From an uncultured Spartobacteria bacterium (lineage in GTDB: Bacteria > Verrucomicrobiota > Verrucomicrobiia > Chthoniobacterales > Chthoniobacteraceae): a stretch of DNA of 64,000 bases. Shown here one piece after another: positions 10,573 to 48,817 of this stretch. The notes beneath the pieces are model-generated. The model was given only the letters and a program-made list of their open reading frames with translations. It was not told the origin of the DNA and searched no databases. The DNA is taken from the NCBI GenBank assembly GCA_903901425.1, contig CAIURC010000207.1, forward strand, positions 62,001 through 126,000, in the 5' to 3' direction. A program made the position numbers and the translations under genes. Numbering within the stretch: the stretch's first letter is position 1; each line of letters opens with the position of its first letter.

Positions 10573-11835
10573 ATGCAAATCCCACTCGCCTACGGCAGGG
10601 GCCACCAGACAGTCGAGCTTCCGGCGGCTCAAACAACGGTCATTCTTCCGGCACCAAACCCGGGACTGGCGGACGAAAAAGCCGCGCTTCACGCGGCACT
10701 CGATGCCCCCCTGAATGCAGTCCCGCTGGCCAGCCAAGTCACGCCCGACACGCGGATTACGATTGTCCACACCGACATCACCCGGCCGACCCCGAACGAC
10801 CGGCTCATTCCCTGGCTCCTGCAGTACCTCGAGGCAGCTGGCGCTTCCGATTCCCACATCACCCTGCTCAACGCCCTCGGAACCCATCGCCCCAACTCCC
10901 GGGCCGAACTTGAACAGATGCTCACCCCAGCGGTCGTGGCACGCTACCGCTGCCTGAACCATGAGCCCGAAAACCCGGCAGCACACCGACAGTTCGGAGT
11001 CACACGTTCCGGCGCGCCGGTCCTCATCAACAAACACCTCGCGGACGCCGATCTGCGCATCGTTACCGGGTTCATTGAACCGCACTTCTTCGCGGGATTT
11101 AGCGGCGGTCCGAAGGGAATCATGCCCGGTGTCGCGGCGCTTTCCACGGTCCAGTCCAACCACGGCCATTCCCAGATCAACTCTCCCTCCGCCACATTCG
11201 GCTCCACAGAAGGCAACCCCGTCTGGGAGGAAATGCGCGACATCGCCCTCCGCATCGGTCCCAGTTTCCTGCTCAATGTCACCCTCAACGATGAACGCCA
11301 GATCACCGGCTACTTCGCGGGCGACCTCCTTTCCGCCCACAAGGCCGGCACCGAATTCGTCCGGGCCAGCGCCATGCAGCCAGTCGACCACCTGTTTGAC
11401 ATCGTCCTGACCACCAACAGCGGGTACCCGCTCGACATGAACCTCTATCAGGCCGTCAAGGGGATGCGCGCCGCCGAGCGCATCGTCCGCCCGGGCGGCC
11501 TTATCCTCCTCGCTGCGGAATGCTCCGAGGGAGTGCCGGCAGACAGCCCACACGACCGGCTCCTACGAAATTTTCCAGACGGCGAGTCCCTCCTCCAACG
11601 TCTCTCTGAGCCCGGGTTCGCTTTCCCCGAACAGTGGCAGAGCCAGATCCAAGCCCTCATCCAGCGCAGGGCCGAAATCCAGGTCTTCAGCTCCCTGGAC
11701 GATGCCGTGGTCCGGGCCGCGCATCTGGTTCCCTGCAAAAACATCGAGGGCGCCATCGCCGCGCGGCTGACTCCCGAAACACGAATCGCCGTCCTGCCCC
11801 AAGGCCCGCTCACCGTGCCTTACATCCGTACCTGA
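10573..11835 (+). CDS. larA: LarA-type nickel-pincer lactate racemase / epimerase homologue
   Basis: The 420-residue protein has the LarA (DUF2088) N-terminal domain with 'TDITRPTPN' (67-75) and 'GTHR' (103-106), and the C-terminal LarA domain. The pincer cofactor residues can be placed by alignment with the Lactobacillus plantarum enzyme (His108, His174, Lys184, His200): here they are His105, His171 in 'IEPHFFAGF', Lys181 in 'SGGPKGIMPG' and His197. All four are present, so catalysis is plausible. The family includes racemases of lactate, malate, phenyllactate and other 2-hydroxy acids, so the substrate is open. The cofactor-building genes larB, larC and larE are not in the window. It is the last gene of the operon. 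Confidence 0.9.
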   Translation: MQIPLAYGRGHQTVELPAAQTTVILPAPNPGLADEKAALHAALDAPLNAVPLASQVTPDTRITIVHTDITRPTPNDRLIPWLLQYLEAAGASDSHITLLNALGTHRPNSRAELEQMLTPAVVARYRCLNHEPENPAAHRQFGVTRSGAPVLINKHLADADLRIVTGFIEPHFFAGFSGGPKGIMPGVAALSTVQSNHGHSQINSPSATFGSTEGNPVWEEMRDIALRIGPSFLLNVTLNDERQITGYFAGDLLSAHKAGTEFVRASAMQPVDHLFDIVLTTNSGYPLDMNLYQAVKGMRAAERIVRPGGLILLAAECSEGVPADSPHDRLLRNFPDGESLLQRLSEPGFAFPEQWQSQIQALIQRRAEIQVFSSLDDAVVRAAHLVPCKNIEGAIAARLTPETRIAVLPQGPLTVPYIRT

Positions 11836-14771: not shown

Positions 14772-16007
14772 ATGTCTGCGTCGCGCACAAGCCCGAACCC
14801 GGTTTCGATTGAACTCCCTGCAGCAACCGCCGACTTTATCCCTGCCATGAATGCCTTTCTCGAAAAACTCCGCGCGGCCCTGCACTCGGGCTCATTCGTG
14901 AAAGCCACCCTCGGCAAACCTCTTTCCGGTCAGATCCGCCAGATCGCCCTCCGCATGGTCACGCTCCGTTCCGGTCCCCACCTGTGCTTTGTCCACAAAC
15001 TTGACCGCCAGGAGACCACCAAAAACTTTCCCGTTGAAGAGGGAATCGCCCAGGTCGGCTCCCTTCTTGGCGCCCCGTTTGCACATGCCCATCTCTTCAC
15101 CACAGAGGGCGATTTTCTCTGGCGCCATTCCCATCCAGGCTCCCTTCAGGCTGCACGTCCCACATTTCAAACCGCCCCGGATCCCAGCCACGACCGGTCC
15201 AAAAAAAGGATCCTTCCGCCCAACGCTCCCTTCCTCCATTTCCTCGGCCTCACCACTGCCGAGGGACGCCCCCTGGCGGGAAAATCCGACAAACTCCGCC
15301 AGGTCCAACACTTCGTCGAAATCCTCAACCACCATTCCAGCCATGCCGGGCTCCTCGAAAAAAAGGGACTCACGCTCCGGGACATGGGTTCAGGACGCGG
15401 CACTCTTACCTTTGCCGCCCATGCGTTCTTCCACCAACTCGGCCTTGAACCCGTCACGCTCGGCGTTGAACAACGCCCGGAACTGGTCGCGTTCACCCAA
15501 GACGCCGCCCAAAAAGCCGGGTTCACCCAACTCCGCTTCACCCAGGGCCAAATCGCCGACTTCCCGCCAGAAAAGCCTCTGGACGTGCTTCTCGCTCTCC
15601 ACGCCTGTGACACCGCCACCGACGACGCCCTCTTCCACGGCATCCGATCCAACGCCACGCTCCTTCTGACTGCACCCTGTTGCCACCGGGAAATCCGATC
15701 CCGGATGCCCGCCGTCCCCCTGTTCGAACCCATTCTCCGCCATGGCATCCTGCTGGAGCGCCAAGCCGAGATTCTCACGGACACCATCCGCGCGCTCCTC
15801 CTCGAAATCCACGGATACCGGGCATCCGTCTTTGAGTTCATCTCGAGCGAACACACCGCCAAAAACCTGCTCCTTGCCGCCATCAAACGGGAAACGCCCG
15901 CCGACCCCGCCCCACTCCGTGCAAAACTCCTGTCCCTCTGTGCCGCCTTCAGCATCCGCTCTCATCACCTCGCGCGTCTTTTGGAGGAACCCCTGTGTAC
16001 CCCGTGA
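14772..16007 (+). CDS. Class I SAM-dependent methyltransferase (GSTCD / Methyltransf_32-like)
   Basis: The product has 411 residues. An N-terminal domain of unknown type (1-170) precedes a Rossmann methyltransferase core with motif I 'DMGSGRGTLTF' near 204-214. The later motifs are 'LHACDTATDDAL' and 'TAPCCHREIRSRM'. The HACD-plus-APCCH pair is typical of proteins related to human GSTCD, thought to act on RNA or protein. There is no signal peptide, so it is cytoplasmic. It overlaps the next gene by 13 bp, and that gene is also a translation-linked methyltransferase homologue, which suggests a shared role in rRNA or ribosome maturation. The start lies 17 bp from the 5' end of rnpB, divergently. 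Confidence 0.8.
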   Translation: MSASRTSPNPVSIELPAATADFIPAMNAFLEKLRAALHSGSFVKATLGKPLSGQIRQIALRMVTLRSGPHLCFVHKLDRQETTKNFPVEEGIAQVGSLLGAPFAHAHLFTTEGDFLWRHSHPGSLQAARPTFQTAPDPSHDRSKKRILPPNAPFLHFLGLTTAEGRPLAGKSDKLRQVQHFVEILNHHSSHAGLLEKKGLTLRDMGSGRGTLTFAAHAFFHQLGLEPVTLGVEQRPELVAFTQDAAQKAGFTQLRFTQGQIADFPPEKPLDVLLALHACDTATDDALFHGIRSNATLLLTAPCCHREIRSRMPAVPLFEPILRHGILLERQAEILTDTIRALLLEIHGYRASVFEFISSEHTAKNLLLAAIKRETPADPAPLRAKLLSLCAAFSIRSHHLARLLEEPLCTP

Positions 16008-17038
16008 AAAGCCGCTTCTCCACCGCTGAACTGAACACGCTGCGCCGGCTTCGCGCCGGTTTTCTGGACGGATCCGCTGGTCTGAGTGACTACTGGCGCT
16101 CCGAATCCGACCTCGCGCTGTACGACGCCACGTTCGCCCAACGGATCGGCTGGAAATGGGACGCCGTTCTCCGCGAACTCCAGCTCCGCCAGTGGCAGCC
16201 CGCCTCCGAACACGTTCTGGACTGGGGCTGTGGAACTGGCATCGCCTCCCGCGCATTCCTTGCCGCATTTCCAAACACGCGCTCGGTGCAACTCCACGAC
16301 CGCTCCCAAGAGGCGCGCCGGTTTGCTTCGGCGCGGCTCCACGAAACCTTCCCGTCAGTCACCGCAGATCTTTCGCGTCCAGACGCAACGGACAAGACCG
16401 TGCTGCTCAGCCATGTCTTGAACGAACTGCCTGCCCACGCGCTTCAACAACTCATTGCCCTTCTCCGGAATGCCGCCGCCGTCGTCTGGGTCGAGTCCGG
16501 CACCCACACCACCAGCAGGCTTCTGAGCGAAGCCCGGGCGACCCTTCTCGGGACCGGGTTCGAACCCGTGGCGCCGTGTCCGCACTCCAGTCCGTGTCCC
16601 ATGCTGGACCCGAAAAACGCGCGCCACTGGTGCCATCATTTCGCTCAGCCGCCCCCGGCTGCATTTCAAGATGCGCGCTGGGAACAGTTCCGGCGCGAAC
16701 TCGGGATCGACCTGCGTTCACTTCCCTACAGTTTTGTTGTGCTCCAACGCCCGACTCCCTCCCCCCAGGCTCAACACCCCGAGGCAGAACGCCCGGAGGC
16801 AACTCCGTTCCGGCACAGGCTCATTGGCAAACCTCGGGAGTTTAAGGGGCACGACAAAGTACTCACCTGCCAGGAGGAGGGGCTCACCGAATGGATGCTC
16901 CAAAAACGGGATGCCCCGGAGCTCCTCTCCGAAATGCGCGCCCCCTCCGGCGTACCCAGCTACCAGCTTTCGACGCAGAACGGCAAAATCCTCTCCGGCA
17001 CCGCTTTTTCTCCTCCTGAAGCCCCTCGTTGGGACTGA
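15995..17038 (+). CDS. Rsm22/METTL17-family methyltransferase-like protein with four candidate Fe-S cysteines
   Basis: The 347-residue protein has a methyltransferase fold, with motif I 'VLDWGCGTGIASRAFL' (74-89) and 'LLSHVLNELP' (137-146). The Rsm22 signature follows: 'CPHSSPCPM' (Cys195, Cys201) and 'HWCHHF' (Cys213). A fourth cysteine, Cys292, is in 'KVLTCQEEG'. In mitochondrial METTL17/Rsm22, four such cysteines bind a 4Fe-4S cluster and the protein assists small-subunit assembly. The GTG at 15995 is preferred because GGAGG lies 7 bp upstream; a GTG at 16004 in a GTGA overlap is the alternative. It is translationally coupled to the preceding methyltransferase gene. Confidence 0.87.
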   Translation: MYPVKSRFSTAELNTLRRLRAGFLDGSAGLSDYWRSESDLALYDATFAQRIGWKWDAVLRELQLRQWQPASEHVLDWGCGTGIASRAFLAAFPNTRSVQLHDRSQEARRFASARLHETFPSVTADLSRPDATDKTVLLSHVLNELPAHALQQLIALLRNAAAVVWVESGTHTTSRLLSEARATLLGTGFEPVAPCPHSSPCPMLDPKNARHWCHHFAQPPPAAFQDARWEQFRRELGIDLRSLPYSFVVLQRPTPSPQAQHPEAERPEATPFRHRLIGKPREFKGHDKVLTCQEEGLTEWMLQKRDAPELLSEMRAPSGVPSYQLSTQNGKILSGTAFSPPEAPRWD

Positions 17039-17376
17039 GCGCGTTGAATTGCGCACCGCAGATTCAGACGCCCCCCCAAAGTGGCGGGTCGGTTTTGGCT
17101 GGAGGATAAAATTTCCTTCTAAGAAAAACGGAAGCTCCGGAATCGGTGGGCGTTAGCCGACTGATTCTGCGGCCTCACAGTTCGCTCTCCCGAGAAACCA
17201 ACCGATCAGGCGTTCCGCCCAGACAAACCTGTTCAGCACCACGGATCCCCACAAGGCCTGCAATCCCGCAGGCCTCCGTAGCAACTCGGAAACTCACCCC
17301 CGTTTTCACAAACCAAGCCAGGACTTGGGCGTTCCTAAAACGCACACAGATCCACACAACCCCTGAATCCGCGTCC
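17039..17376. other. Intergenic stretch upstream of the MoxR operon
   Basis: These 338 bp should contain the promoter of the eight-gene operon. They include a perfect 7-bp stem, GGCCTGC/GCAGGCC (17255-17274), and ACTTGGGCGTTCC at 17323-17335, which is shared with the region after the oxidoreductase gene. I see no confident -35/-10 pair. The frame of the MoxR gene is open through much of it, but the extra residues resemble no MoxR protein. Confidence 0.5.
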
Positions 17377-18402
17377 ATGCCATTAGAACCCAACCAACCC
17401 GCTTCCCCACTTCCCAAGGATGACGTTGATGCCGTGGACCATCTCCGCGAAGTCTATCGCGAACTCAAGACCGAGCTGGCCAAGGTCATCGTGGGCCAGG
17501 ACCAAGTTATTGAACAACTGTCCATCTGTCTGTTTGCCCGGGGCCATGCCCTCCTCATGGGCGTCCCGGGCCTGGCCAAAACCCTCCTCATCAGCCGACT
17601 GGCCGAAACCCTGTCCCTGAGCTTCAGCAGAATCCAATTCACCCCGGATCTGATGCCCATGGACATCACTGGAACCGACATCCTCCAAGAACTGCCCGGA
17701 GGAAAACGCGCCTTCGAATTCCACAAGGGGCCGGTCTTTGCGCACATTGTCCTCGCCGACGAAATCAACCGTGCGCCGGCCAAAACCCAGGCCGCCATGC
17801 TGGAGGCGATGCAGGAACACCGCGTCACTGTGGCGGGGCGCCCGTACGTTCTTGAATCCCCCTTCTTTGTGCTCGCCACGCAGAACCCGGTAGAACAAGA
17901 GGGCACCTACCCGCTGCCTGAGGCGCAACTGGACAGGTTCATGTTTATGATCGGCGTCGATTACCCCTCCAGAGCCGAGGAAATCACGATCGCCAAGAAC
18001 ACCACGGGCCAGTCCCTTCCCAGCCTCCGTCATATTCTCGATGGCCCGAAGGTCCTCGCCTTCCAAGATCTCGTGCGCCGAATTCCCGTGCCCGAGCACC
18101 TCTATGAGTTCGCCGTTGACCTTGTCCGGCGCTCCCGTCCCTCCGGACAGGAAGCACCACAGTGGATCCGACCGCTGGTCAACTGGGGCGCAGGCCCACG
18201 CGCCATCCAATACCTGATCTTGGGGGCAAAAGCCCGGGCTGCCCTCCACGGAAGCTACGTGGTGCGTCTGGAAGATCTGGTGGAAGTCGCCGACCCCGTG
18301 CTCCGCCACCGGGTCATGACCACCTTCACAGCTGAAAGTGAAGGGGTCTCCAGTCGCGACATCACACGGCGCCTCGTCGAGGAACTCGCCAAGGAAGCCT
18401 GA
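17377..18402 (+). CDS. MoxR-family AAA+ ATPase
   Basis: The 341-residue ATPase has Walker A 'GVPGLAKT' (62-69), Walker B 'VLADEINRAPAKTQAAMLEAM' with its acidic pair, sensor 1 'FVLATQNPVEQ', and a C-terminal lid domain with 'PRAIQYLILGAKARA'. MoxR ATPases act as chaperones for VWA-domain partners, and this one heads an operon with three VWA or VWA-like genes, the classic arrangement. It is cytoplasmic. The ATG at 17377 gives the usual family length. The next gene begins 22 bp on. Confidence 0.95.
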   Translation: MPLEPNQPASPLPKDDVDAVDHLREVYRELKTELAKVIVGQDQVIEQLSICLFARGHALLMGVPGLAKTLLISRLAETLSLSFSRIQFTPDLMPMDITGTDILQELPGGKRAFEFHKGPVFAHIVLADEINRAPAKTQAAMLEAMQEHRVTVAGRPYVLESPFFVLATQNPVEQEGTYPLPEAQLDRFMFMIGVDYPSRAEEITIAKNTTGQSLPSLRHILDGPKVLAFQDLVRRIPVPEHLYEFAVDLVRRSRPSGQEAPQWIRPLVNWGAGPRAIQYLILGAKARAALHGSYVVRLEDLVEVADPVLRHRVMTTFTAESEGVSSRDITRRLVEELAKEA

Positions 18403-18424
18403 CCGCCCAGCGCCGCACGGTCCC

Positions 18425-19345
18425 ATGCGCGAGTCCCGGTCGTTTCTCGATCCCGCGGTTTTGGCCCGCCTGATGGCTCTGCCCCTGCATGCGCGGCATG
18501 CGATGCTCGGCAGCGTTTCGGGAAAACACCGCAGCCCGGTCCGGGGCTCCTCCCTCGAATTCGCCCAGTACCGCAAATACGTACCCGGCGATGACACCCG
18601 ACGTCTGGACTGGCGCACATGGGGCCGCAGCGACCGCTTTTACATCAAGGAATTTGAGGCCGACACCAACCTCCGCCTCTGTCTCCTCCTAGACACCAGC
18701 GGCTCGATGGCGTTCCGCCCTGCCCCCCCGATGCCCACCGAACTTTCGCGTCTGGAGTTCGCCCTCCGGATTGCCGGCAGTCTGGCCTACCTGGCCGCCA
18801 AACAAGGCGACGCCGTTGGACTCTCCTCCATGTCTGATACCGGCACCCCTGTGAGCATCCCCGCGCGCCGCGGGGCCGGTCACCTCGGGTTGGTGCTCGA
18901 CCAAATGTCTAAACTGACTCCGGCGGGAGGCACCACCCTTGTCGAATCCCTGCATCGCGTGGCTGAAACCCTGCGCCAACGGGCTCTGGTACTGATCGTT
19001 TCCGACTTCTTTGTTCCCACGGCCGAACTCCATCACGCCATCCAGCACCTGCGCTTCAGGAAACACGACATCGCCGCCTTTCACCTTCTTGACCGTCAGG
19101 AGCTCGAATTCGACTTCGAGAAACCCGCCCGCTTTGTAGATCTCGAAGGCGGCGAAAGCCTACTTGCGGATCCCACCCTGATCGCCCGCAACTACCGGGC
19201 TGCGGTCGCCGAATACCTGAGCGCGCTCGACTCTCTGGTGCGCAATTCCGGCATCGATTACCACCGGGTCCTTCTCCATGAACCCTACGAGCCCGCGCTT
19301 GCCAAGTTTCTCCTGGGCAGATCCCCCAAAAAAGCCGGCCGATGA
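18425..19345 (+). CDS. DUF58 / VWA-like protein
   Basis: The 306-residue protein carries the DUF58 signature 'YVPGDDTRRLDWRTWGR' (52-68) and a VWA fold with MIDAS motif 'LDTSGSM' (89-95), so a divalent ion is probably bound. It is the standard partner encoded after MoxR ATPases in aerotolerance (Bat) and related operons. There is no signal peptide or membrane helix, unlike some DUF58 proteins. The stop codon overlaps the next start by 4 bp (ATGA), showing translational coupling. The ATG at 18425 is chosen from family length; the frame is open upstream. Confidence 0.93.
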   Translation: MRESRSFLDPAVLARLMALPLHARHAMLGSVSGKHRSPVRGSSLEFAQYRKYVPGDDTRRLDWRTWGRSDRFYIKEFEADTNLRLCLLLDTSGSMAFRPAPPMPTELSRLEFALRIAGSLAYLAAKQGDAVGLSSMSDTGTPVSIPARRGAGHLGLVLDQMSKLTPAGGTTLVESLHRVAETLRQRALVLIVSDFFVPTAELHHAIQHLRFRKHDIAAFHLLDRQELEFDFEKPARFVDLEGGESLLADPTLIARNYRAAVAEYLSALDSLVRNSGIDYHRVLLHEPYEPALAKFLLGRSPKKAGR

Positions 19346-21369
19346 CCTTCCTCGAACCCATTTACCTCGTCGGGCTGCCTCTGGCCGCTTTGCCCGTGGT
19401 GATCCATCTGGTCCATCTCTGGCGCCGCAAACCCATCCCATGGGCAGCCATGATGTTCCTCCGCATCGCCCAACAGCGCCACCGGGGGCTCTCGCAACTC
19501 CGCCAAATCCTCGTGCTCGCATTGCGCGTGCTCGCCGTCGCCTGCGTTCTACTCTCCATCGCACGCCCCCTGGCCGGAGGCTGGCTCGGACTCACCGGAG
19601 GCGCGCCCGACTCCGTACTCGTGCTCCTTGACCGCTCCGCCAGCATGGAGCAGCACCCCACCTCGCTACCCACCAGCAAACGCCAAGCCGCCCTCCAAAA
19701 AGTCTCCAAAACCATCCGCCAATCCTCGGGAGACCGCTCCAAGGTCATCCTCCTCGACAGCGCCTCTCTCCACCCCCTCCTCCTCACCCAACCCGAGGCC
19801 CTTCTCGACGTCCCGCACTCCGGCCCCACCGACACCCATTCCGATCTTCCCGCACTACTCCAAGGCGCACTCGACTATCTCGCCTCCCACCCGTCCGGTC
19901 GCACCGACCTCTGGGTCCTGAGCGATCTCCAAAAAACCGACTGGGACCGTTCCAGCGGCCGCTGGCAAAATCTCCGGTCCGCCTTCGCCGCACTCCCAGG
20001 GGTCCGGTTCCACCTCTTCGCCCTGCCGCAGCCCCCCGAGGACGACCTCGGTATCCGCCTTGAAAACGTCTCCCGCAAAACAGGCGGAGACCGCGCTGAA
20101 CTCCAGTTCGACCTCTTCCTCCAACGCCAGTCCGCTCCCACTTCCCCCCAGAAAATCCCGCTGCGCTTCATCATCAATGGCGTCGCCACCACCTCCAATC
20201 TGACACTCAAAGATTCCCAGACCGCCGTCCACGCGTTCTCTCTGCCGCTCGACAAATCGCTGCTCCGCGGCTGGGGCCGCGTTGAACTCCCCGCAGACTC
20301 TAACCCCTCCAACAACACCTTCCATTTTGTCTTTGAACCGCCTCCGCCCCTCCGTTCCGTGATCGTCTCCGAGGATCCCGATGCGACTGTCCCGCTTCAG
20401 GCCGCGCTCTCCTCACCGCCCGAGCCCGGCCGCGAATTTCCCTCCACCCTCCTGTCCCCCGACCGCGCCCATGAAATCCCATGGGACGACACTGCCCTCC
20501 TCGTCTGGAACGCCCCCTTCCCAAAACCCGGCACGCCACTCCACCACCAATTCCTCGATCACGTCGCCGCGGGACGCGCGCTTCTTCTTCTCCCGCCGCA
20601 AACCCCGGAGGACTCGGAGCTTTTCGGGCTCCGCTGGACCCGGTGGGAAGAAGCTGCCCGGCCCGTCTCGCCCGACTGGTGGAAAAACGATTCCGATCTG
20701 CTTGCCAACACTCGCGATGGCACCGCCCTGCCTGTTGGCACCCTCGAAATCCAACGCTTCTGCGGAGTCTCCGGAGCGTTCATCCCGCTTGCCCTCCTGC
20801 CCGGGCGTCTCCCCCTGCTCCTGCGACCAGCCACCGAAAAAAACGTGTTCTTCCTCGCCACACACCCCAACCCAGGCGGATCCAGTCTTTCCCGGGACGG
20901 CGTTGTTCTCTTTGCACTGCTGCATCGCGCCCTTGCTGAGGGGGCCCAATCTCTGGGTCAGGCACAGCATCGCATCGCCTCCGCCCTCCCCGACTCCACG
21001 ACCGCCCCATGGAAACCCGTGGACGGAAGCACGCCCCTTGGAACGCCATCCGACCAACTCGCACTCCGTGCCGGTATCCTCCAGTCCGGATCACACCTCC
21101 TCGCCCTCAACCGTGCACCCGCCGAGGATCTCCACGAATATCTCTCCCCCGAAACCCTCCGCGAACTTTTTGCCGGACTCGATGCCCGCGTTCTCACCGA
21201 CACCCTTGAGGACAGCCGGGACCTGACCTCCGAGATCTGGCGCACATTCCTTTTCGGAATGGCCCTCGCACTTCTGGCCGAAGCAATCCTTTGCCTGCCT
21301 TCTTCCACGCGTCCCCAGCGTCAGGACTCTCCTACCGCAGGCTTCGCGACTGCCCCACCCTCCCGATGA
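19342..21369 (+). CDS. BatA-like membrane protein with VWA domain
   Basis: The 675-residue protein begins with the double-membrane-helix N-terminal domain typical of BatA-type proteins (TIGR02226): 'LEPIYLVGLPLAALPVVIHL' and 'ILVLALRVLAVACVLLSIA'. A periplasmic VWA domain follows with 'LLDRSASM' (95-102), a partial MIDAS. A beta-rich middle region and an amidotransferase-like segment precede a last helix near 635-655. It is anchored in the inner membrane with most of its mass outside. ATGA overlaps join it to both neighbours. The target of such proteins is unknown; the phenotype known from Bacteroides is oxidative-stress tolerance. Confidence 0.88.
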   Translation: MTFLEPIYLVGLPLAALPVVIHLVHLWRRKPIPWAAMMFLRIAQQRHRGLSQLRQILVLALRVLAVACVLLSIARPLAGGWLGLTGGAPDSVLVLLDRSASMEQHPTSLPTSKRQAALQKVSKTIRQSSGDRSKVILLDSASLHPLLLTQPEALLDVPHSGPTDTHSDLPALLQGALDYLASHPSGRTDLWVLSDLQKTDWDRSSGRWQNLRSAFAALPGVRFHLFALPQPPEDDLGIRLENVSRKTGGDRAELQFDLFLQRQSAPTSPQKIPLRFIINGVATTSNLTLKDSQTAVHAFSLPLDKSLLRGWGRVELPADSNPSNNTFHFVFEPPPPLRSVIVSEDPDATVPLQAALSSPPEPGREFPSTLLSPDRAHEIPWDDTALLVWNAPFPKPGTPLHHQFLDHVAAGRALLLLPPQTPEDSELFGLRWTRWEEAARPVSPDWWKNDSDLLANTRDGTALPVGTLEIQRFCGVSGAFIPLALLPGRLPLLLRPATEKNVFFLATHPNPGGSSLSRDGVVLFALLHRALAEGAQSLGQAQHRIASALPDSTTAPWKPVDGSTPLGTPSDQLALRAGILQSGSHLLALNRAPAEDLHEYLSPETLRELFAGLDARVLTDTLEDSRDLTSEIWRTFLFGMALALLAEAILCLPSSTRPQRQDSPTAGFATAPPSR

Positions 21370-23570
21370 CCCCGAGCACCCAGTCGCTCACATTCACGCA
21401 CACCCCCCTATCCCTCGGACTGGGCGCGGCATTCGTAATCGCTATCGCGGCACTGGGCTACCTCGCCGCAAAACGGACCCGGTTCCGCACCTCCACCTGC
21501 CTGCTCGAATCCCTCCGCCTTTTTATCGCCTGCGCGATCGCAGTCTCCCTCAACCAACCCGAGTGGAGACAAATTTTCCTTCCTGAATTCAAACCCACCC
21601 TGGCCCTGCTGCCAGACGTGTCCCGCTCGATGGAGACCCGCGATGTGACCGATCCCCAGAATCCCTCGGCTGAACCCGGCTCGCGCTCCGAAACTGTCCG
21701 GCGCCTGATCGACCCCGGCCTCTGGCAGGCACTTTCCTCCAAGTTTGACATTGTTCAGGAACCGTTCGCTTCCTCCCAAAATCCCACCCCGGAAGGCACC
21801 GACATTCACGCAGCCCTGAGCCAGACCGCTGAGAAACACCCCCACCTCAAAGCCATCATCCTTCTGAGCGACGGCGACTGGAACTCTGGCCCAGCTCCCA
21901 CCCAAGCCGCCACCCCGCTGCGCATGCGCAACGTGCCTGTTTTTGCCGTCCCCATCGGGGCCGAGACTAGGCTGCCCGACGTGCAACTCTCCAGCTTCGA
22001 AGTTCCCACCTTTGCGATTGCCGGAAAACCCCTGCGCATCCCATTCACCATCCACAGCTCTCTCCCCCGCGAGGAGTCCGTGGAGCTCAAATTTTTGACC
22101 TCCGCAGGCGAACGCCTCACCAAAACCGTTCTGCTCCCTGCAATGGGCCATCTTCAGGATGTCCTCGTCTGGAAACCTGAAACCCTCGGCGAACTCTCCC
22201 TCACCCTCTCCGCCCCCCCCACCGGCGGCGAACGCATCCTCGATAACAACTCCGTCACCGTTCCGGTAGCCATCCGCAAAGAACAACTGCGCGTGCTCGT
22301 TGTGGACACCCTGCCCCGCTGGGAATTCCGCTACCTTCGGAACGCGCTCGAACGCGATCCCGGCGTTCTGGTCCAGTGCCTGCTCCTGCACCCCGACCTC
22401 GGCAAGGCTGGCAACGGACGCGGCTACCTCCCCGCGCTCCCCTGCGACGATGAACTCGCCAAGTACGATGTCGTTTTTCTCGGCGATATCGGCCAATCCC
22501 CAGGGCAACTCTCCCCCGAACAGTGCGCCGCCCTCCAAAAACTCGTCCGCGACCAAGCCTCCGGACTCGTCTTTCTCCCCGGATTGCGCGGATTCCAGAT
22601 CTCCCTTCAGCAGAGCCCACTCGCTGACCTGCTCCCGGTTTCCTACGATGACAGCCAGCCGCGCGGCTGGGGCACTTCACATCCAGGGCGCCTGACCCTC
22701 ACCGACTCCGGTTCATCGAGCCTTCTGACCCAACTCGAGGACTCTGAAGAAGCTAACCTCCGGGTCTGGCAAAACCTTCCTGGGTTTCAGTGGTTCGCCC
22801 CCGCCGCCCGCGCCAAGGCCGGCGCCGAGGTTCTGGCCACCCATGATACTGAATCCAACCGTTTTGGGCGCGTCCCATTGCTCGTCACAAAAACCTATGG
22901 AGCCGGCAAAATCCTCTACCTTGGCACTGACGGTGCCTGGCGGTGGCGCAAGGGGGTAGAAGACCGTTTCCATTACCGTTTCTGGGGACAGGTCGTCCGC
23001 TGGATGGCCTACCAGCGCTCCATGGCACAGGGCGAAAAAATGCGCCTCTTTTACTCCCCGGACCGCCCCAAAACGGGCGCTTCACTCACACTCAACGCCA
23101 ATGTCTCTAGCGCCTCTGGAGAACCCCTCCGACAGGGCACCGTCTTGATTCAAGCCACAGCACCCTCGGGCAAAACCGTCTCCCTTCGTCTGAACCCCGC
23201 CGGCGCGGATGCATGGGGCCTTTTCTCCGGCGTCTTCACCCCGCAGGAACACGGCGAGTACCGACTCCATCTCCTCTGCACCGAAGCTGGCGCCACCCTC
23301 GACTCTGTGGTCTCTGTTCAAGGCACACCCCGCGAAAAAATCGGCCAACCCGCCCGTCCCGATGTTCTCCGCGAAATCGCCGAAATCACCCGTGGCTGCG
23401 TCCTCGAAAACGCCTCCCAGGAAAAACTCCTCACCGCCATTTCAGCGCTTCCAGCTCAGGAACCGGTGGAAAAACGCATCGCGCTCTGGGCCCACCCTGC
23501 ATGGGCTGGCTCCCTGATTCTGCTGATGGGCATCTTCTGGTTTGCACGCAAATCCGCTGGCTCCTTCTGA
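21366..23570 (+). CDS. Membrane VWA / glutamine amidotransferase-like protein
   Basis: The 734-residue protein has two N-terminal helices (about 15-35 and 48-62), then a VWA-like domain with a degenerate MIDAS 'LLPDVSRSMETRD' and 'AIILLSDGDWN'. A class I amidotransferase-like fold around 'LRVLVVDTLPRWEFRYLRNAL' and 'DQASGLVFLPGLRGF' follows. A beta-domain and a single C-terminal helix (about 713-731) finish it. This layout is common in PVC proteins encoded after BatA-type genes. No nucleophilic cysteine motif (GxCxG) is visible in the amidotransferase part, so it is probably structural. ATGA coupling with the upstream gene fixes the start. Confidence 0.85.
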   Translation: MTPSTQSLTFTHTPLSLGLGAAFVIAIAALGYLAAKRTRFRTSTCLLESLRLFIACAIAVSLNQPEWRQIFLPEFKPTLALLPDVSRSMETRDVTDPQNPSAEPGSRSETVRRLIDPGLWQALSSKFDIVQEPFASSQNPTPEGTDIHAALSQTAEKHPHLKAIILLSDGDWNSGPAPTQAATPLRMRNVPVFAVPIGAETRLPDVQLSSFEVPTFAIAGKPLRIPFTIHSSLPREESVELKFLTSAGERLTKTVLLPAMGHLQDVLVWKPETLGELSLTLSAPPTGGERILDNNSVTVPVAIRKEQLRVLVVDTLPRWEFRYLRNALERDPGVLVQCLLLHPDLGKAGNGRGYLPALPCDDELAKYDVVFLGDIGQSPGQLSPEQCAALQKLVRDQASGLVFLPGLRGFQISLQQSPLADLLPVSYDDSQPRGWGTSHPGRLTLTDSGSSSLLTQLEDSEEANLRVWQNLPGFQWFAPAARAKAGAEVLATHDTESNRFGRVPLLVTKTYGAGKILYLGTDGAWRWRKGVEDRFHYRFWGQVVRWMAYQRSMAQGEKMRLFYSPDRPKTGASLTLNANVSSASGEPLRQGTVLIQATAPSGKTVSLRLNPAGADAWGLFSGVFTPQEHGEYRLHLLCTEAGATLDSVVSVQGTPREKIGQPARPDVLREIAEITRGCVLENASQEKLLTAISALPAQEPVEKRIALWAHPAWAGSLILLMGIFWFARKSAGSF

Positions 23571-41387: not shown

Positions 41388-41999
41388 CTACCTCGAGTAC
41401 AACTCGACGATCAACTGCTCGTTCACAATCGGAGCGATCTCATCACGGCTCGGAACACGTGCCACTTCCCCGGTGAACTGCTCCTTATCCACCAAAAGCC
41501 AGTCAGGAACCGGCGTGATTTGGGTCAATTCAAGATTCTTCGCCGCAAGACTCCGCGACTTCGGATGGTTCCGGATAGAAATCTTGTCCCCAGTCTTCAA
41601 ATTGTAGGAGGAAATGTTCACCTTGCGACCGTTCACCTGAACGTGTCCGTGTGAAACCATCTGCCTTGAGGCACTCCGGCTACTCGCAAAACCAAGACGG
41701 TACACGACGTTGTCGAGACGGGTCTCAAGCAACTGGAGCAGGATCTCCCCGGTCACGCCACGACGCGTAAGTGCCGTGCTGAAATACCGACGAAACTGAC
41801 GCTCCAGAACACCGTACTGGAAACGGAGCTTCTGCTTCTCAGCCAACGCAACTGCATACTCAGACTGCTTCCGCCGTGAACCCTTGGGACCATGCATCCC
41901 GGGAGGATAATTCTTATTCTCCGTGGACTTCGTTGTCCCAAAAAGCGGGACTCCAAACCTACGGCTCAACTTGTCCTTAGGACCTGTGTAACGTGCCAT
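41388..41999 (-). CDS. rpsD: Small-subunit ribosomal protein uS4
   Basis: The 203-residue protein starts 'MARYTGPKDKLSRRFG' and contains the S4 RNA-binding domain 'RLDNVVYRLGFASSRSASRQMVSHGHVQVNG'-type region (about 92-125). S4 starts assembly of the 30S 5' domain and represses its own operon in E. coli. It is the last gene of the cluster; rpoA and rplQ, which normally follow, are absent and a terminator follows instead. It has no zinc-finger cysteines (C-minus form). Confidence 0.97.
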   Translation of the reverse strand: MARYTGPKDKLSRRFGVPLFGTTKSTENKNYPPGMHGPKGSRRKQSEYAVALAEKQKLRFQYGVLERQFRRYFSTALTRRGVTGEILLQLLETRLDNVVYRLGFASSRSASRQMVSHGHVQVNGRKVNISSYNLKTGDKISIRNHPKSRSLAAKNLELTQITPVPDWLLVDKEQFTGEVARVPSRDEIAPIVNEQLIVELYSR

Positions 42000-42040
42000 T
42001 TAAATCTCCTTTCCGAATCAAAAAAAATAGTGCTTCCGCA

Positions 42041-42604
42041 TCACACACGCCGCTGCTTCGGCGGGCGGCAACCGTTGTGAGGCACCGGCGTGACGTCCCG
42101 GATCAGAGTAATCTCCAAGCCAACAGCCTGAATCGCGCGAACGGCTGATTCCCGGCCGGCGCCCGGCCCCTTCACGCGGACCTCAACCTCACGCAAACCG
42201 TGACCCATCGCCTGCCTGCAGGCGTCTTGAGCCACCATCTGGGCTGCATAAGCGGTGCTCTTACGGGACCCCTTAAAGCCGACTTTCCCGGCGCTCGACC
42301 ACCCAATCACATGACCCACAGCGTCCGTGATGCTCACGATTGTGTTGTTGAAGCTAGCCTGAACGTGGGCAACCCCAGTGTGAACGTTCTTGCTCCCCTT
42401 CGCCTTGATCACCTTGATCGGCTCAACCACAGCATTCGGATCCAGAGAAAGGTTCTCGACCTTCTTCTCTGCTTCCGCTGCCGGTGCCGCATCCTTCTTC
42501 TTGGAAGCCTTCGGCTTCACAGCTGCCTTGGCAGCTTCGGGGGCCGCCGGAGCCGCAGCCGCAACTGCCTCCTCACCACCCACAGTCTTTTTGATCTCTG
42601 ACAT
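42041..42604 (-). CDS. rpsK: Small-subunit ribosomal protein uS11 with long N-terminal extension
   Basis: The 187-residue protein has a standard S11 core from about residue 69 ('[19 protein letters not shown]', '[12 protein letters not shown]'-type loop, '[18 protein letters not shown]'). An Ala/Lys/Glu-rich extension of about 65 residues comes first ('[17 protein letters not shown]'). E. coli S11 has 129 residues. S11 lines the mRNA exit on the 30S platform, so the extension should project there. The start is certain because no later Met precedes the core. Confidence 0.96.
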
Positions 42605-42631
42605 AAGATTGTTCTTTCTTGCTTCCCGGGA

Positions 42632-43015
42632 CTACTTCCCGTCTTTAGCCCGCTGCACACCAACGGTCTTCCGAGGCCCCTTCCGAGTCCGCGCATTCGT
42701 CGACGTCCGCTGACCCCGGACCGGCAACCCGCGCCGATGACGAATCCCACGATAGCAGTTAATTGCCTGGAGACGCTTCAGATTCGCCTGCAACTCCCGC
42801 CTCAGGTCACCTTCAATCGGAAGCTTGCTGGCCGTGATCGCCTGAATGATGTGGTTCAGCTGCTCAGGACTCAGATCCTTTGCACGCACATTCGGGTCCA
42901 CATTCGCCTGTTCAAGAATCTTACCGGCGGTGGTCGGTCCGATGCCATAAATGTACGGCAACGAAGCAACAATCCGCTTGTCTCCGGGAATTTCAACTCC
43001 AAGTAGTCGGGGCAT
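42632..43015 (-). CDS. rpsM: Small-subunit ribosomal protein uS13
   Basis: The 127-residue S13 starts '[14 protein letters not shown]' and contains the helix-hairpin-helix '[14 protein letters not shown]' and the basic tail '[22 protein letters not shown]'. It bridges the 30S head to the 50S subunit. GGAGAG lies 7 bp upstream, fixing the start although the frame is open for 34 more codons. The gene lies 17 bp after rpmJ. Confidence 0.97.
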
Positions 43016-43032
43016 AATTTCTCTCCTTAGTC

Positions 43033-43146
43033 CTAGCCTTGCCGCTGCTTGTGACGCGCGTTCTTGCAAATCACGCGCACAACATTCTTCCGCTTCACGA
43101 TGCGGCACGCCTCGCAAAGCCTTTTCACTGATGCTCTAACTTTCAT
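43033..43146 (-). CDS. rpmJ: Large-subunit ribosomal protein bL36
   Basis: The 37-residue protein starts '[14 protein letters not shown]' and ends '[11 protein letters not shown]'. It has the zinc-binding set Cys-x2-Cys, a further Cys and His of the C-plus form. L36 stabilises 23S rRNA near the peptidyl-transferase region. It sits between map and rpsM, its usual place, but infA, which normally precedes it, is missing. No Shine-Dalgarno site is close to the ATG. Confidence 0.95.
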
Positions 43147-43241
43147 AAGATCTAGCTGGTTCCAGACATCCTCCGGCCACCCGGAACGTCAATCCTTGGT
43201 GGTCACCGATTTTTTTGCAATACTAATTTAAAGTTTTCTAC

Positions 43242-44030
43242 TTAATTCCCGGCAGCTCCCGCCTCGACCGGCAGCAACGTTAAAATCTCAGGCTCGCCAC
43301 CCGTCACGAGGACGGTGTGCTCGAAATGGGCAGAAGGTTTTCCATCCATCGTCACAACTGTCCACTTGTCCGAGAGAACCTTCACACCCTCCGCGCCCAA
43401 GTTCACCATGGGCTCAATCGCAAGCGTCATTCCAGGCTTCAGCTTCGGCCCAGTCCCGCGCCTGCCATAATTCGGGATCTGAGGCTCCTCATGAAGCTTC
43501 CGACCGACCCCGTGCCCGACGAACTCTTTAACAACCGAATAACCTGCGCCCAAAACCTCCTCCTCAATCGCAGCACACATGTCACCCAAGCGCCGACCGG
43601 CAACCGCATATCGCACTGCCGTCATCAAAGCCTGCTGGGTCACCTGCAACAACCTCTGCAACGAAGGATCCAACGCCCCAGCCCCTACAGTCCGTGCGTT
43701 GTCCCCTACCCAACCGCCCTTAATCACACCAACATCCAACTTCACTACATCCCCGTACTGAATCCGGCGTGCGCCCCCAATGCCATGAACCACCTCCTCA
43801 TTCACCGAAATACAGATCTGCCCCGGAAACCCGCGGTACCCCAAAAAAGCACTGGTGCAACCCAGTTCCTTCATGTGCTCCCCAGCAGCTCTATCGATCT
43901 CGCCGGTGCTGACCCCTGGCCGCACCATCCCGCAAATCCGATCCAGCACCAAAGCCGCTGCCCGCCCGGCCTCCCGCATCCGCTCGATCTCGCGCTCGCT
44001 CTTGATCGGTATCATCTCCAACCCGATCAA
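43242..44030 (-). CDS. map: Type I methionine aminopeptidase
   Basis: The 262-residue enzyme removes the initiator Met from new proteins. Metal ligands are visible in 'VVKLDVGVIKGGWVGDNARTV' (two Asp), 'EFVGHGVGRKLHEEP' (His), 'TLAIEPMV' (Glu) and 'AHFEHTVLV' (Glu). I keep the TTG at 44030, in a TTGA overlap with the secY stop and 7 bp after GAGG; the ATG at 44015 is the alternative. It is translationally coupled to secY, the usual order. The 95 bp after it are AT-rich and separate it from rpmJ. Confidence 0.95.
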   Translation of the reverse strand: MIGLEMIPIKSEREIERMREAGRAAALVLDRICGMVRPGVSTGEIDRAAGEHMKELGCTSAFLGYRGFPGQICISVNEEVVHGIGGARRIQYGDVVKLDVGVIKGGWVGDNARTVGAGALDPSLQRLLQVTQQALMTAVRYAVAGRRLGDMCAAIEEEVLGAGYSVVKEFVGHGVGRKLHEEPQIPNYGRRGTGPKLKPGMTLAIEPMVNLGAEGVKVLSDKWTVVTMDGKPSAHFEHTVLVTGGEPEILTLLPVEAGAAGN

Positions 44031-45532
44031 CGGAACCTCGCGGCAATAAAAACGGTCATGCCAGCAACCACGAGAATCGCGACACCCACATACATCCAGA
44101 GCAGAGCCCGCTCCCCTACCGCGGCGCCGCCGGAAACCTGCGCCCGGTCGAAGCGGCCCCGGATCTTGCCCTTGCGAAGGAAGCCGTCGTAATGCCGCTG
44201 GATCAGATGGGTCTCAATCTGCCGCATGGTATCCAACACTACCCCGACAACGATCAACAGACTTGTTCCCCCAAAAAACTGGGCGGCGATGTAGGGAACC
44301 TTGAGCTGCTGGGACAGCATCTGAGGCAGAATCGCAATCACCGTCAGGAAAATCGCACCCGCAAAGGTCAGCCGGGTCATGGTAAAATCAAGAAAGTCCG
44401 CTGTCGGCTTCCCTGGCCGCACCCCTGGGATGTAACCCCCGTACTTCTTGAGGTCGTCTGCAATCTGCTGCGGTTGGAACTGAGTCGCCACCCAGAAATA
44501 GCTGAAGAAGAAAATCATCACCGCATACAGGGCGTAATGAACTGGTCCATCCGTAAGAGCAGCGGCGATCTTCCGCGCGATCGGAGCATTCTGAAGCATG
44601 TTCGCGATCGTTGATGGGAACACCAGCAGCGCCTGTGCAAAAATAATAGGCATCACACCCGCGTAGTTCACCTTCAGCGGCATATACTGGGTCTGCCCGC
44701 CGTAAACCTTTCTCCCCACAACGCGCTTTGCATACTGAACACTCACCTTCCGCTGAGCCTGGGTGACGCAGATGACTGCAGCGATCACGAGCAACAGGAA
44801 CGCGATCATCAAAACCAAAACCATCGGACTCACGGAACTGGAGGGAGCACCGCCCGAGGGAACAAATGTTCTCCAAGCCTGAATCAAAGCCGCTGGGAGA
44901 CGAGCGACGATGCCAACCGTGATGATCAAAGACATTCCATTGCCAATCCCCCTCTCCGTGATCTGATCCCCCAACCACATCAGGAACATCGTTCCGGCAG
45001 TCAACGTCACCACGGTGATCGCTCGGAAAATCGGGCCCGGATCCCCTACCAAAGGCGTTCCCAACCGGTTGATCGTATCCATGATCCCGGAAAGAAACGG
45101 ATTCGACTCAGGATGCTCAAATGACACCGCAAGCAGATACCCTTGGAAAATACAAAGGCCGATCGTTGCATACCGGGTGTACTGCATGATCTTCTGCCGC
45201 CCACCGTCCTCCTTGGCAAGCTTCCCCAGTTGGGGAATCACTGCCGTCAAGAGTTGGATCATGATGGAGGCACTGATGTAGGGCATCACACCCAGCGAAA
45301 AAATCGCGCAGTTTTCAAGAGCCCCACCACTGAAGATATTGAACAGAGCTGCAACACTGCCGCCGGCCTGACTGTTGACCTGCGATTCAAACCACTGCTG
45401 AAGGACCGACGCGCTGACCCCGGGACAGCTGATCGCTGCTCCGATGCGGACAACCACCAACATCAGAAGCGAAAACAGCACCCGGTTCCTCAACTCCGGT
45501 ATCTTAAGGGTGTTTTGAAAAGCAGAAATCAT
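44027..45532 (-). CDS. secY: Preprotein translocase subunit SecY
   Basis: The 501-residue protein has ten membrane helices, starting 'MISAFQNTLKIPELRNRVL', with plug-region 'FSGGALENCAIFSLGVMPYISASIMIQLL'-type sequence near 70-95 and 'VQYAKRVVGRKVYGGQTQYMPLKVN' in the cytoplasmic C4 loop region. It is longer than E. coli SecY (443). It forms the export channel used by the many signal-peptide proteins of this window. It follows rplO by 78 bp. Confidence 0.97.
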   Translation of the reverse strand: MISAFQNTLKIPELRNRVLFSLLMLVVVRIGAAISCPGVSASVLQQWFESQVNSQAGGSVAALFNIFSGGALENCAIFSLGVMPYISASIMIQLLTAVIPQLGKLAKEDGGRQKIMQYTRYATIGLCIFQGYLLAVSFEHPESNPFLSGIMDTINRLGTPLVGDPGPIFRAITVVTLTAGTMFLMWLGDQITERGIGNGMSLIITVGIVARLPAALIQAWRTFVPSGGAPSSSVSPMVLVLMIAFLLLVIAAVICVTQAQRKVSVQYAKRVVGRKVYGGQTQYMPLKVNYAGVMPIIFAQALLVFPSTIANMLQNAPIARKIAAALTDGPVHYALYAVMIFFFSYFWVATQFQPQQIADDLKKYGGYIPGVRPGKPTADFLDFTMTRLTFAGAIFLTVIAILPQMLSQQLKVPYIAAQFFGGTSLLIVVGVVLDTMRQIETHLIQRHYDGFLRKGKIRGRFDRAQVSGGAAVGERALLWMYVGVAILVVAGMTVFIAARFR

Positions 45533-45610
45533 GGGTCTTCCTCGTCGCCAGAAGACAAACAGCGACCGTCGGCGGCATCGCCCCGGTCGCAGCTTGAAAT
45601 CGAAAAAGCT

Positions 45611-46057
45611 CTAGCCAACCACTGCCACCGAACCACCCAGTTTCTCAATCTGAGTCCGTGCTGCAGCACTAATCTTGGTCACGGAAATCTTCAGAGCCTT
45701 TGTCAGGCTACCGCCGCCCAGAACCTTGACCCCGGCAACATTGCCACGGACCAAACCGGCCGCACGAAGCAGTTCCTCGGTCACTTCGGACCCTGCATCA
45801 AACCCCTCCAGGTCCGAGAGGTTGACCTCCGCATAGCGAACCTGAAACTGGGTGTTATTAAACCCGCGTTTCGGCATCCGCCGAATCAAAGGCATCTGGC
45901 CGCCCTCGAAACCGAGACGAATGCTGCCACCGGAGCGGGCCTTCTGACCCTTGTGACCTTTACCGCTGGTCTTGCCGTGCCCGCTGCTTTCGCCGCAGCC
46001 GAGCCGCTTGACCCGGTGCTTGGCCCCCGGGCGAGGCTTCAAATTTGTCAGATCCAT
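45611..46057 (-). CDS. rplO: Large-subunit ribosomal protein uL15
   Basis: The 148-residue L15 starts 'MDLTNLKPRPGAKHRVKRLG' and has the Gly-rich 'GESSGHGKTSGKGHKGQKARSG' arm and 'PLIRRMPKRGFNN'. It begins 4 bp after rpsE: the L30 gene (rpmD) that usually lies between is absent. Confidence 0.97.
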   Translation of the reverse strand: MDLTNLKPRPGAKHRVKRLGCGESSGHGKTSGKGHKGQKARSGGSIRLGFEGGQMPLIRRMPKRGFNNTQFQVRYAEVNLSDLEGFDAGSEVTEELLRAAGLVRGNVAGVKVLGGGSLTKALKISVTKISAAARTQIEKLGGSVAVVG

Positions 46058-46061
46058 AAAA

Positions 46062-46610
46062 TTAGCTAGCTACTGCCTCGGTGCGCGGGGCAATCCCACG
46101 TGTCTTGAAGATCTCCTCCCTGCGCCGGAGTTGCCCGAGCGCCTCGATCGTGGCCTTCACCACATTGGCGTGGTTGCTTGAACCAAGCGACTTCGCAAGG
46201 ACATCTTTGATTCCGACCGCCTCAATCACGGCACGCACGCCGCCGCCGGCAATCACCCCCGTCCCGGGGGAGGCAGGCCGAAGAAGCACCCGCCCGCCAC
46301 CGAACTCACCAACCACCTCATGCGGAATGGTGTTGTTCACGGTGGAAATCTTTACGAGGGCCTTCCGAGCGGACTCCGAAGCCTTCCGAATCGCCTCGGA
46401 GACTTCGTTTGCCTTCCCGAACCCGCAACCGACTTTACCGGCGCGATCCCCGGAAACAATCAGAGCACTGAAACTAAAACGCCGCCCACCCTTAACCACC
46501 TTGGCGCACCGATTAATAAACACCACCTTCTCCGTGAGATCGGACTGCTCCCTCTCCGGCTTGGGTTTCTCGCCGCGCCTAGGTCTGTTGCCTTGTTGAA
46601 CTGAAGCCAT
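46062..46610 (-). CDS. rpsE: Small-subunit ribosomal protein uS5
   Basis: The 182-residue S5 has a basic N-terminus ('[20 protein letters not shown]'), the dsRNA-binding-like core '[21 protein letters not shown]', and the C-terminal domain '[18 protein letters not shown]'. It is involved in translational accuracy. The ATG at 46610 lies 7 bp after rplR; the longer open frame runs back into rplR and is not used. Confidence 0.97.
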
Positions 46611-46617
46611 ATGTTTT

Positions 46618-46977
46618 TTAGAAATCCAAACCGCCTTCGCGCGCAGCATCCGCCAACGCCTTGACCTTGCCGTGATAAATGTAACCACCGCGGTCGAAAA
46701 CCACGGCACTCACATTCGCTTTCTTTGCCCGCTCCGCCACCAACTTCCCAACCTTCAAAGCCGTTTGAACATTGGGCCGACTCGATGCGTCGGAGCGGAA
46801 CGCTTCCTCGGTGGTGGACACAGATGCCACGGTGCGGCGCTCCTCGTCGTTCACGACCTGCGCGTAAATATGTTGGCCAGAAAAATGCACGGAAAGACGG
46901 GGCCGGGTTCCGGTACCGGAAACCTTCTTCCGGATGCGCTCGTGGCGCAACTTCAATGGGTTTGTTCGAGAAGCCAT
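46618..46977 (-). CDS. rplR: Large-subunit ribosomal protein uL18
   Basis: The 119-residue 5S rRNA-binding protein starts '[19 protein letters not shown]' and has '[18 protein letters not shown]' and '[27 protein letters not shown]'. The ATG at 46977 fits the family; a TTG two codons earlier is the alternative. It follows rplF within a few bases. Confidence 0.97.
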
Positions 46978-46985
46978 ATTCAAAA

Positions 46986-47525
46986 CTATTGCACTGTCTT
47001 GCCTTCTTTCCGGACGATCTGCTCGCCGGCATAACGCACTCCCTTGCCCTTGTACGGCTCAGGCGGGTAATACGCACGGATGTCAGCAGCCACTTGGCCC
47101 ACCAACTGCCGGTCAATCCCCTCAATTTTTACCTTCGTGTTTTCAGCCACGGTCACCTTGATTCCAGCGGGAATCGGGAAAAGGATGTCGTGGGAGAAGC
47201 CAAGATTCAGCTTCAAAGTGCTCCCCTGTACAGCCGCCTTGAAACCCACCCCCTGGATTTCAAGATCCTTAACGAAACCGGTGTTCACCCCGGTAACCAT
47301 GTTGTTGACTAGAGCCCTCGAAAGACCGTGCAATGCACGCACCGAGCGGTCCTCGCCACTGCGGATCAACTCAACCCGGCTGCCCTCCACCTTACCACTG
47401 ATCGCCTTGGGCAACTGCCAGCCGAGTTTGCCCTTCGGGCCCTCGACACTGACAGCACCAGAGGCGCTGATCGTCAACTTCACTTTCTCAGGAAGCTCAA
47501 TAGCCTTTTTTCCGATTCGCGACAT
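46986..47525 (-). CDS. rplF: Large-subunit ribosomal protein uL6
   Basis: The 179-residue L6 starts '[15 protein letters not shown]' and ends with the signature '[25 protein letters not shown]'. It has two duplicated folds and sits near the factor-binding site of the 50S subunit. It lies between rpsH and rplR in the conserved order. Confidence 0.97.
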
Positions 47526-47547
47526 AGAATCCTAATTCTGTCTCCGT

Positions 47548-47940: not shown

Positions 47941-47974
47941 ATCTTACTTTGTCGTTTCAACTCCACTCTGCACC

Positions 47975-48547: not shown

Positions 48548-48553
48548 AAATAC

Positions 48554-48817
48554 TTACTCCTTGGAACCGGCCTTTGCCGCCTTTTCAACCAAGCGGACGT
48601 TGGACACATGGATAGGCCCCTCGCGCTGCGCGATGGAACCTTGAGGGTTGTCCTGGGACTTTCTGAGGTGCTTCTTGATCATCCGCACGCCTTCCACCAG
48701 CACTTGCTCACGATTGGCAATCACCTGGAGAACCTTCCCCTTCTGCCCGGAGTGATTGCCAGACACGACCTCCACCTGATCCCCCTTGGAAACATGAAAC
48801 TTCTTTCTGCTCATCAC
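48554..48817 (-). CDS. rplX: Large-subunit ribosomal protein uL24
   Basis: The 87-residue L24 has a KOW motif: '[22 protein letters not shown]'. It initiates 50S assembly. Its ATG overlaps the rplN stop (ATGA). It is somewhat shorter than E. coli L24 (104), ending in a lysine-rich tail. Confidence 0.96.

Follow-up and report, generated by a model that had tools for sequence, protein, structure and literature searches.

The gene at positions 15995 to 17038 of the window, the stretch of 64,000 nucleotides from an uncultured Spartobacteria bacterium that was analyzed here, encodes a true bacterial relative of the mitochondrial Rsm22/METTL17 proteins and is thus a member of a known family. Four cysteines that are presumed to hold a metal cluster, and a motif for binding of S-adenosylmethionine (SAM), are kept in this protein and its relatives. 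The gene overlaps another methyltransferase gene of the family PF13679, and this linkage is recurrent but not universal. As a whole, the data are best explained, with a probability of roughly 0.6, by an orthologue with domains closed by a cluster, a role at the head of the 30S subunit, and a partner in the same pathway. The features are listed in Table 1.

Table 1. Features of the Rsm22 gene and its upstream neighbor in the window
Feature	Position	Strand	Remarks
PF13679 (Methyltransf_32) class I methyltransferase, 411 aa, with N-terminal alpha/beta region	14772..16007	+	Pfam, 103.8 bits, cut-off 27
Junction: GGAGG site resembling a ribosome-binding site, candidate GTG starts 15995 and 16004, upstream stop TGA 16005-16007	15983..16007	+	
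Rsm22/METTL17-family methyltransferase-like protein	15995..17038	+	347 aa; 344 aa from in-frame GTG 16004
SAM-binding motif I, D76-W-G-C-G-T-G82	16220..16240	+	Conservation in relatives
P194-C195-P-H197-x3-C201-x11-C213-H214, three of the four presumed cluster ligands	16574..16636	+	Conservation; yeast/human equivalence
C292 codon, fourth presumed ligand	16868..16870	+	Aligned with yeast Cys513; model strand 286-293, C-terminal domain

Assignment to the Rsm22/METTL17 family

The open reading frame (ORF) starts with GTG and is uninterrupted over 347 codons on the plus strand. Its product matched PF09243 (Rsm22) in Pfam with 82 bits at a cut-off of 23 (E = 6.5e-23), and no NCBIfam model scored above its cut-off. 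This was the only PF09243 match in the 5.1-Mb draft genome that contains the window. When a profile of 19 relatives was compared with the sequences in the PDB, the best three were human METTL17 (2e-7), Trypanosoma brucei mt-SAF1/RSM22 (1.1e-6), and yeast Rsm22 (3.5e-5).

The AlphaFold model of the protein (pLDDT 85.7, pTM 0.85) predicts a Rossmann methyltransferase domain followed by an OB-like C-terminal domain. The top seven Foldseek matches of this model were all METTL17/Rsm22 chains, which after re-alignment gave Z scores of 19.9 to 23.9 and rmsd values of 4.0 to 4.8 with 292 to 321 aligned residues, within residues 1 to 333. Among them were human METTL17 (Z 23.9, rmsd 4.1, 295 aligned), yeast Rsm22 (Z 23.4, rmsd 4.5, 316 aligned), and the T. 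brucei protein (Z 21.1, rmsd 4.2, 318 aligned). The match of METTL17 spans both domains, from residue 5 to 327, whereas that of the best methyltransferase outside the family stops at residue 253 (range 5 to 253, Z 13.7, rmsd 3.5, 183 aligned). An earlier note on this DNA, made from the sequence alone, had named the protein an Rsm22/METTL17 homologue, and the Pfam score, the ranking of the PDB sequences, and the Z scores of 23.9 versus 13.7 bear this out.

The solved relatives, which are described here from parts of the cited papers, resemble the window protein to different degrees. Human METTL17 (PDB 8csp chain 7 and others) has the same methyltransferase fold and C-terminal domain, with the four cysteines in the same order, but it is a mitochondrial protein with a presequence and a LYR motif. 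The pattern [ILV][FY][KR] did not occur anywhere in the window Rsm22. The LYR motif is reported as being needed in human METTL17 and as not conserved in all family members, incompletely even in mitochondria (PMC12375894), so that its absence was not treated as defining for membership. Yeast Rsm22 (8d8j, 8om2) shares the fold and possesses an extra N-terminal domain (PMC8171064), but has lost the SAM motif that is intact in the window protein. T. brucei mt-SAF1/RSM22 (6sg9) has the same fold and cysteine cluster, but with 1041 aa it is far bigger, and its metal was initially modeled as zinc.

PF09243 matches were present in 42 of 145 genomes from across the phylum Verrucomicrobiota, in 40 of them above the cut-off. 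With such a patchy distribution, the protein does not belong to the core factors of 30S assembly. Among the carriers is, by its genome record (locus L064), Chthoniobacter flavus Ellin428, a strain that is in culture. In Desulfovibrio piger, a prophage is listed as located in an Rsm22-family gene (PMC12724379), which hints that the gene can be dispensable there.

Of the 42 matching phylum genomes, 30 gave loci, and 29 of these were examined as distant relatives, leaving out the window's own. Together with one Nonomuraea sequence (L175, an 11.85-Mb record filed under plasmids), they form the distant set of 30 sequences; this actinobacterial sequence represents all other phyla. The named loci are the best 80 of 453 confirmed stretches, and some of them are the same records as loci numbered with G. 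Removal of near-identical sequences from a total of 110 (30 plus 80) left 85 window-type sequences, the window included. Some record titles look misassigned, for instance that of the “Klebsiella pneumoniae” MAG at L103. With L142 to L170 included, two Rsm22 subtypes seem to exist in the Verrucomicrobiota. One resembles the window protein, with GCG as part of the SAM motif and a stretch similar to HWCHHF. The other is distant and nearer to the form of Nonomuraea, and it carries stretches of CHDVRR or WCHEVRR.

Conservation of the four-cysteine site

The window Rsm22 possesses exactly five cysteines, at positions 79, 195, 201, 213, and 292, and the last four are indeed those that had been claimed as candidate ligands of an iron-sulfur cluster. 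All five were invariant in the window protein and 29 relatives (n = 30) and were present in 85 of the 85 nonredundant window-type sequences, with Cys-x5-Cys in all 85 and the 11-residue gap before the third cysteine in 84. In the distant set, which reaches down to about 22% identity, Cys195, Cys201, and Cys213 were each found in 30 of 30 sequences and Cys292 in 29; the one sequence without it (L151) has a gap at this position in a short ORF. A loss of the cysteines in close relatives, which the earlier note had regarded as evidence against its proposal, was looked for in these sets and did not occur.

Over 115 sequences, 21 of the 347 positions were conserved to at least 95%, the four cysteines among them. 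These positions include D76, G78, G80, G82, E144, E167, P194, C195, H197, C201, C213, H214, and C292. P194 and H197, the counterparts of cis-Pro372 and His375 in yeast, were conserved to at least 99%. At about 25% identity, little remains besides the SAM motif and the presumed cluster site, so that the alignment points to strong selection on both.

The cluster ligands are reported to be Cys333, Cys339, Cys347, and Cys404 in human METTL17 and Cys373, Cys379, Cys400, and Cys513 in yeast Rsm22, with cis-Pro372 and His375 beside the yeast cluster (PMC11046306). In the PDB profile alignments, from which the equivalent residues were counted by hand in the printed form, C195 and C201 were placed on human C333 and C339 and on yeast C373 and C379, with Pro and His likewise beside the first ligand in yeast, and C292 was placed on yeast C513. 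The equivalence of C213 comes from its order and invariance only, this residue lying outside the sequence alignments to solved relatives. With C213 assigned in this way, three presumed ligands are located in an insertion of the methyltransferase domain and one in the C-terminal domain.

The spacing of the cysteines had been said to match that of the mitochondrial protein. This holds for their order and for the identical Cys-x5-Cys, but not for the other gaps, with x5/x11/x78 in the window protein versus x5/x7/x56 in human METTL17 and the longer x5/x20/x112 in yeast Rsm22. Other bacterial PF09243 proteins, from Nonomuraea and distant Verrucomicrobiota, possess all four cysteines, Pro-Cys-x-His, and the SAM glycines as in the window protein, but are only about 22 to 28% identical to it (five compared) and have a gap of 5, 8, 9, or 11 residues between the second and third cysteine.

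Ast et al. 2024 aligned six orthologues across bacteria, fungi, and humans and reported four conserved cysteines (PMC11046306). Because bacterial orthologues were included, the four-cysteine site in bacteria is not new. An experimental study of a bacterial Rsm22/METTL17 protein was not found in the open-licence literature, as judged by titles and beginnings of abstracts among the matches listed. The view that bacterial copies are little studied fits this literature but needs to consider that bacterial orthologues have already been aligned.

Cys79, which was not mentioned in the earlier note, is located inside the SAM motif. It was rejected as a fifth ligand, being Cys in 21 of the 30 distant relatives and Ala or Gly in the other 9; among the 80 named loci, its conservation is skewed by the search, as it was part of one of the two patterns used. 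Radical-SAM chemistry was also rejected, since a regular expression for CxxxCxxC gave no match over the protein; METTL17 has likewise been argued not to be a radical-SAM enzyme (PMC11046306). The genome of the window contains two PF01458 (SufB/SufD) matches.

The overlapping PF13679 methyltransferase gene

With GTG 15995 as its start, which has GGAGG positioned 7 nt upstream, the Rsm22 gene overlaps the upstream ORF by 13 nt; a start at the in-frame GTG 16004 would reduce the overlap to 4 nt (GTGA). The earlier note had described the two genes as coupled, and the overlap of the ORFs together with the recurrence of the pair agrees with this.

Among 57 relatives, the window genome included, both genes were present in 32, Rsm22 without the partner in 4, the partner without Rsm22 in 3, and neither in 18; one genome with a single weak match of 91 residues (G005) was excluded from the partner count. 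The respective numbers for the 145 phylum genomes were 21, 21, 13, and 90. As read from the coordinates, 26 of the 32 relatives that possess the complete pair have the genes adjacent on one strand, and 6 (G007, G008, G017, G021, G025, and G035) have them on different contigs; in the phylum sample, the two genes share a strand and are no more than 4 kb apart in 11 of 21 genomes. The partner was found upstream of Rsm22 in 51 of the 80 named loci (the best 80 of 453) and was absent in 27 despite more than 1.3 kb of upstream sequence, with insufficient room in 2. It was located at a distance of up to 200 nt in 47 of the 51 linked loci and further away in 4; the overlap was 4 nt in 27 of the 51, with start codons chosen by a script.

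These numbers have to be read with regard to the possibility, real but somewhat short of even odds, that the gene pair is a mere conserved neighborhood and that the PF13679 enzyme acts on something unrelated to Rsm22. The six relatives with separated genes would agree with such an explanation, as would the genomes with only one of the two genes in either sample. Against it, co-occurrence was above expectation in both samples, in counts that ignore shared ancestry, the 4-nt overlap is present in about half of the linked named loci, and the partner persists in the six genomes with a split pair. A common pathway of both proteins is therefore preferred here, and the two-protein ribosome maturation unit suggested in the earlier note may serve as a hypothesis, with some genomes carrying one gene only.

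In the partner, C279, C303, and C304 were invariant in 64 of 64 sequences, a PCC motif was invariant, and HACxTATDD was near-invariant; the three cysteines could possibly form a second metal or catalytic site. At motif I, the window partner deviates from its family in two residues, R209 (K in 62 of 64 sequences) and T211 (Y in 62 of 64). A close relative of the partner was not found among the solved structures by sequence. Its model (pLDDT 85.6, pTM 0.63) matched many kinds of class I methyltransferases, the best with a Z score of 15.1 and an rmsd of 3.4 over 172 aligned residues. RNA, protein, and small-molecule methyltransferases were mixed with similar scores in the listed fold matches, so that the label of an “RNA-type” methyltransferase, as used in the earlier note, is unproven. 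The N-terminal region had no clear structural match among the listed folds, which is no proof of a new fold. The partner may bear a METTL25/TRM13-like resemblance; a TRM13 family was not among the Pfam matches listed at an E value of 0.01. No literature naming PF13679 was found, a search for Methyltransf_32 turned up only plant triterpenes, and none of the publications on METTL25 and the ribosome was, by title, about a bacterial protein.

Gene neighborhood

A gene on the same strand and within about 3 kb downstream of Rsm22 in 13 of the 80 named loci was recognized from its sequence and is presumably rimO, for the ribosomal protein S12 methylthiotransferase. This proximity is a weak link to the ribosome and may reflect the gene order of one clade, yet it fits the theme of the decoding region.

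A LarC-like gene, recognized from the sequence, was convergent and downstream of Rsm22 in L086, L098, L103, L106, L109, L112, L114, L118, L126, and L141. In place of this neighbor, the window contains a gene for a LarA-family racemase (10573-11835) about 3 kb upstream of the gene pair. Immediately after the Rsm22 gene and in the same orientation (17146-23570), genes for a MoxR-type AAA ATPase and a DUF58 protein and two large ORFs resemble an operon of the MoxR/vWA type. On the minus strand, a run of ribosomal protein genes with secY (41388-54093) has an order of the S10/spc/alpha type; secY, L22, S3, and S11 were assigned by Pfam and the remainder was recognized from the sequence. Within this run, an ORF of 259 aa (51237-52016) with a start like a signal peptide and without a Pfam match is located between the apparent rpsS and rplV, and the ORF of ribosomal protein S11 (42041-42604, minus strand) contains about 75 extra Ala/Lys-rich residues ahead of the S11 domain.

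The SAM motif and possible methylation

Asp76, Gly78, and Gly80 of the SAM motif were each conserved in 30 of the 30 distant relatives and Gly82 in 29. For the 85 window-type sequences, the numbers were 85 (Asp76), 82 (Gly78), 85 (Gly80), and 84 (Gly82), with one search pattern containing the motif. Because the motif is intact in the window protein and in nearly all relatives examined, the bacterial Rsm22 may have an enzymatic role in addition to that of a clasp.

This could be extended to an active SAM-dependent enzyme that methylates rRNA or tRNA. The cluster would then serve only to shape the substrate site, and the checkpoint would be a later mitochondrial addition. The retained SAM residues would agree with this, especially as yeast Rsm22 has lost SAM binding (PMC9892005), and methylation of mitochondrial tRNA by recombinant yeast Rsm22 in vitro has been reported (PMC8171064). 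A catalytic motif, however, could not be assigned in the window protein, the methyltransferase activity of Rsm22-METTL17 is disputed (PMC12375894), and the protein shows no sign of replacing RsmB or RsmD, which makes this explanation somewhat unlikely.

Such a replacement was rejected because no pattern of mutual exclusion was visible in the 57 relatives. RsmD-family matches (PF03602) were present in 57 of 57, and RsmB exceeded its cut-off in 37 of them, with 27 of the 36 carriers of Rsm22 in this number. The nine carriers without RsmB above the cut-off are G019 and G037 with matches in pieces, G035 with a match just below the cut-off, G026 and G029 with genomes that are 73% and 84% complete, respectively, and G043, G046, G053, and G054 with weak matches only. 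The latter four are also the Rsm22 carriers without the PF13679 partner.

Proposed mechanism

The preferred explanation, an orthologue with a cluster-closed structure that acts on the 30S head, takes its mechanism from the mitochondrial relatives as described in the available parts of PMC11046306 and PMC9892005. By homology, the window Rsm22 would bind a [4Fe-4S] cluster. That the four cysteines instead hold structural zinc in vivo, in a protein of the same family and ribosomal role but without any link to iron or redox state, is quite improbable: invariant cysteines cannot tell metals apart and the T. brucei relative was first modeled with zinc at the same residues (PMC8171064, PMC9892005), but this density was reinterpreted later (PMC9892005), and 3.7 Fe per chain and a band around 400 nm were reported for human METTL17 and a cubane in the yeast map (PMC11046306).

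In the model with a cluster, a methyltransferase fold of class I that carries a cysteine-rich insertion would close against the OB-like C-terminal domain via the metal cluster, held by Cys195, Cys201, Cys213, and Cys292. The cluster would most likely be [4Fe-4S] and act as a structural clasp. Without it, the two domains of the apo protein would not be held together, and no binding would occur. The holo protein should bind the immature 30S head near h31/h34 of the 16S rRNA, prevent opening of the mRNA channel and compaction of the head, and depart once maturation is complete. Due to the retained SAM residues, the protein may also methylate or may use SAM as a structural ligand. The enzyme encoded by the overlapping PF13679 gene would probably act in the same pathway. 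Overall, the earlier observation is sound, with an overstated claim on the spacing and a reasonable but hypothetical mechanism.

A wider reading would place the origin of an iron-sulfur checkpoint on small-subunit assembly before that of mitochondria. The Rsm22 of Verrucomicrobiota, binding [4Fe-4S] and SAM, would then be made together with a dedicated PF13679 methyltransferase, in some lineages beside rimO, and the two enzymes would form a module by which maturation and modification of the 30S head are coupled to the status of iron or oxygen. In its full extent, this reading is unlikely.

Significance

METTL17 is reported to be depleted when iron-sulfur cluster assembly fails, for instance in frataxin deficiency (PMC11046306). 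The gene pair is a testable bacterial counterpart of this known mitochondrial checkpoint and not a new kind of system. The recurrent PF13679 methyltransferase partner is the least-explored part of the finding. The bacterial protein, which combines the cluster site with an intact SAM motif and is encoded in a short gene pair, offers a simpler setting for the question of whether the ancestral role was that of a clasp, an enzyme, or both.
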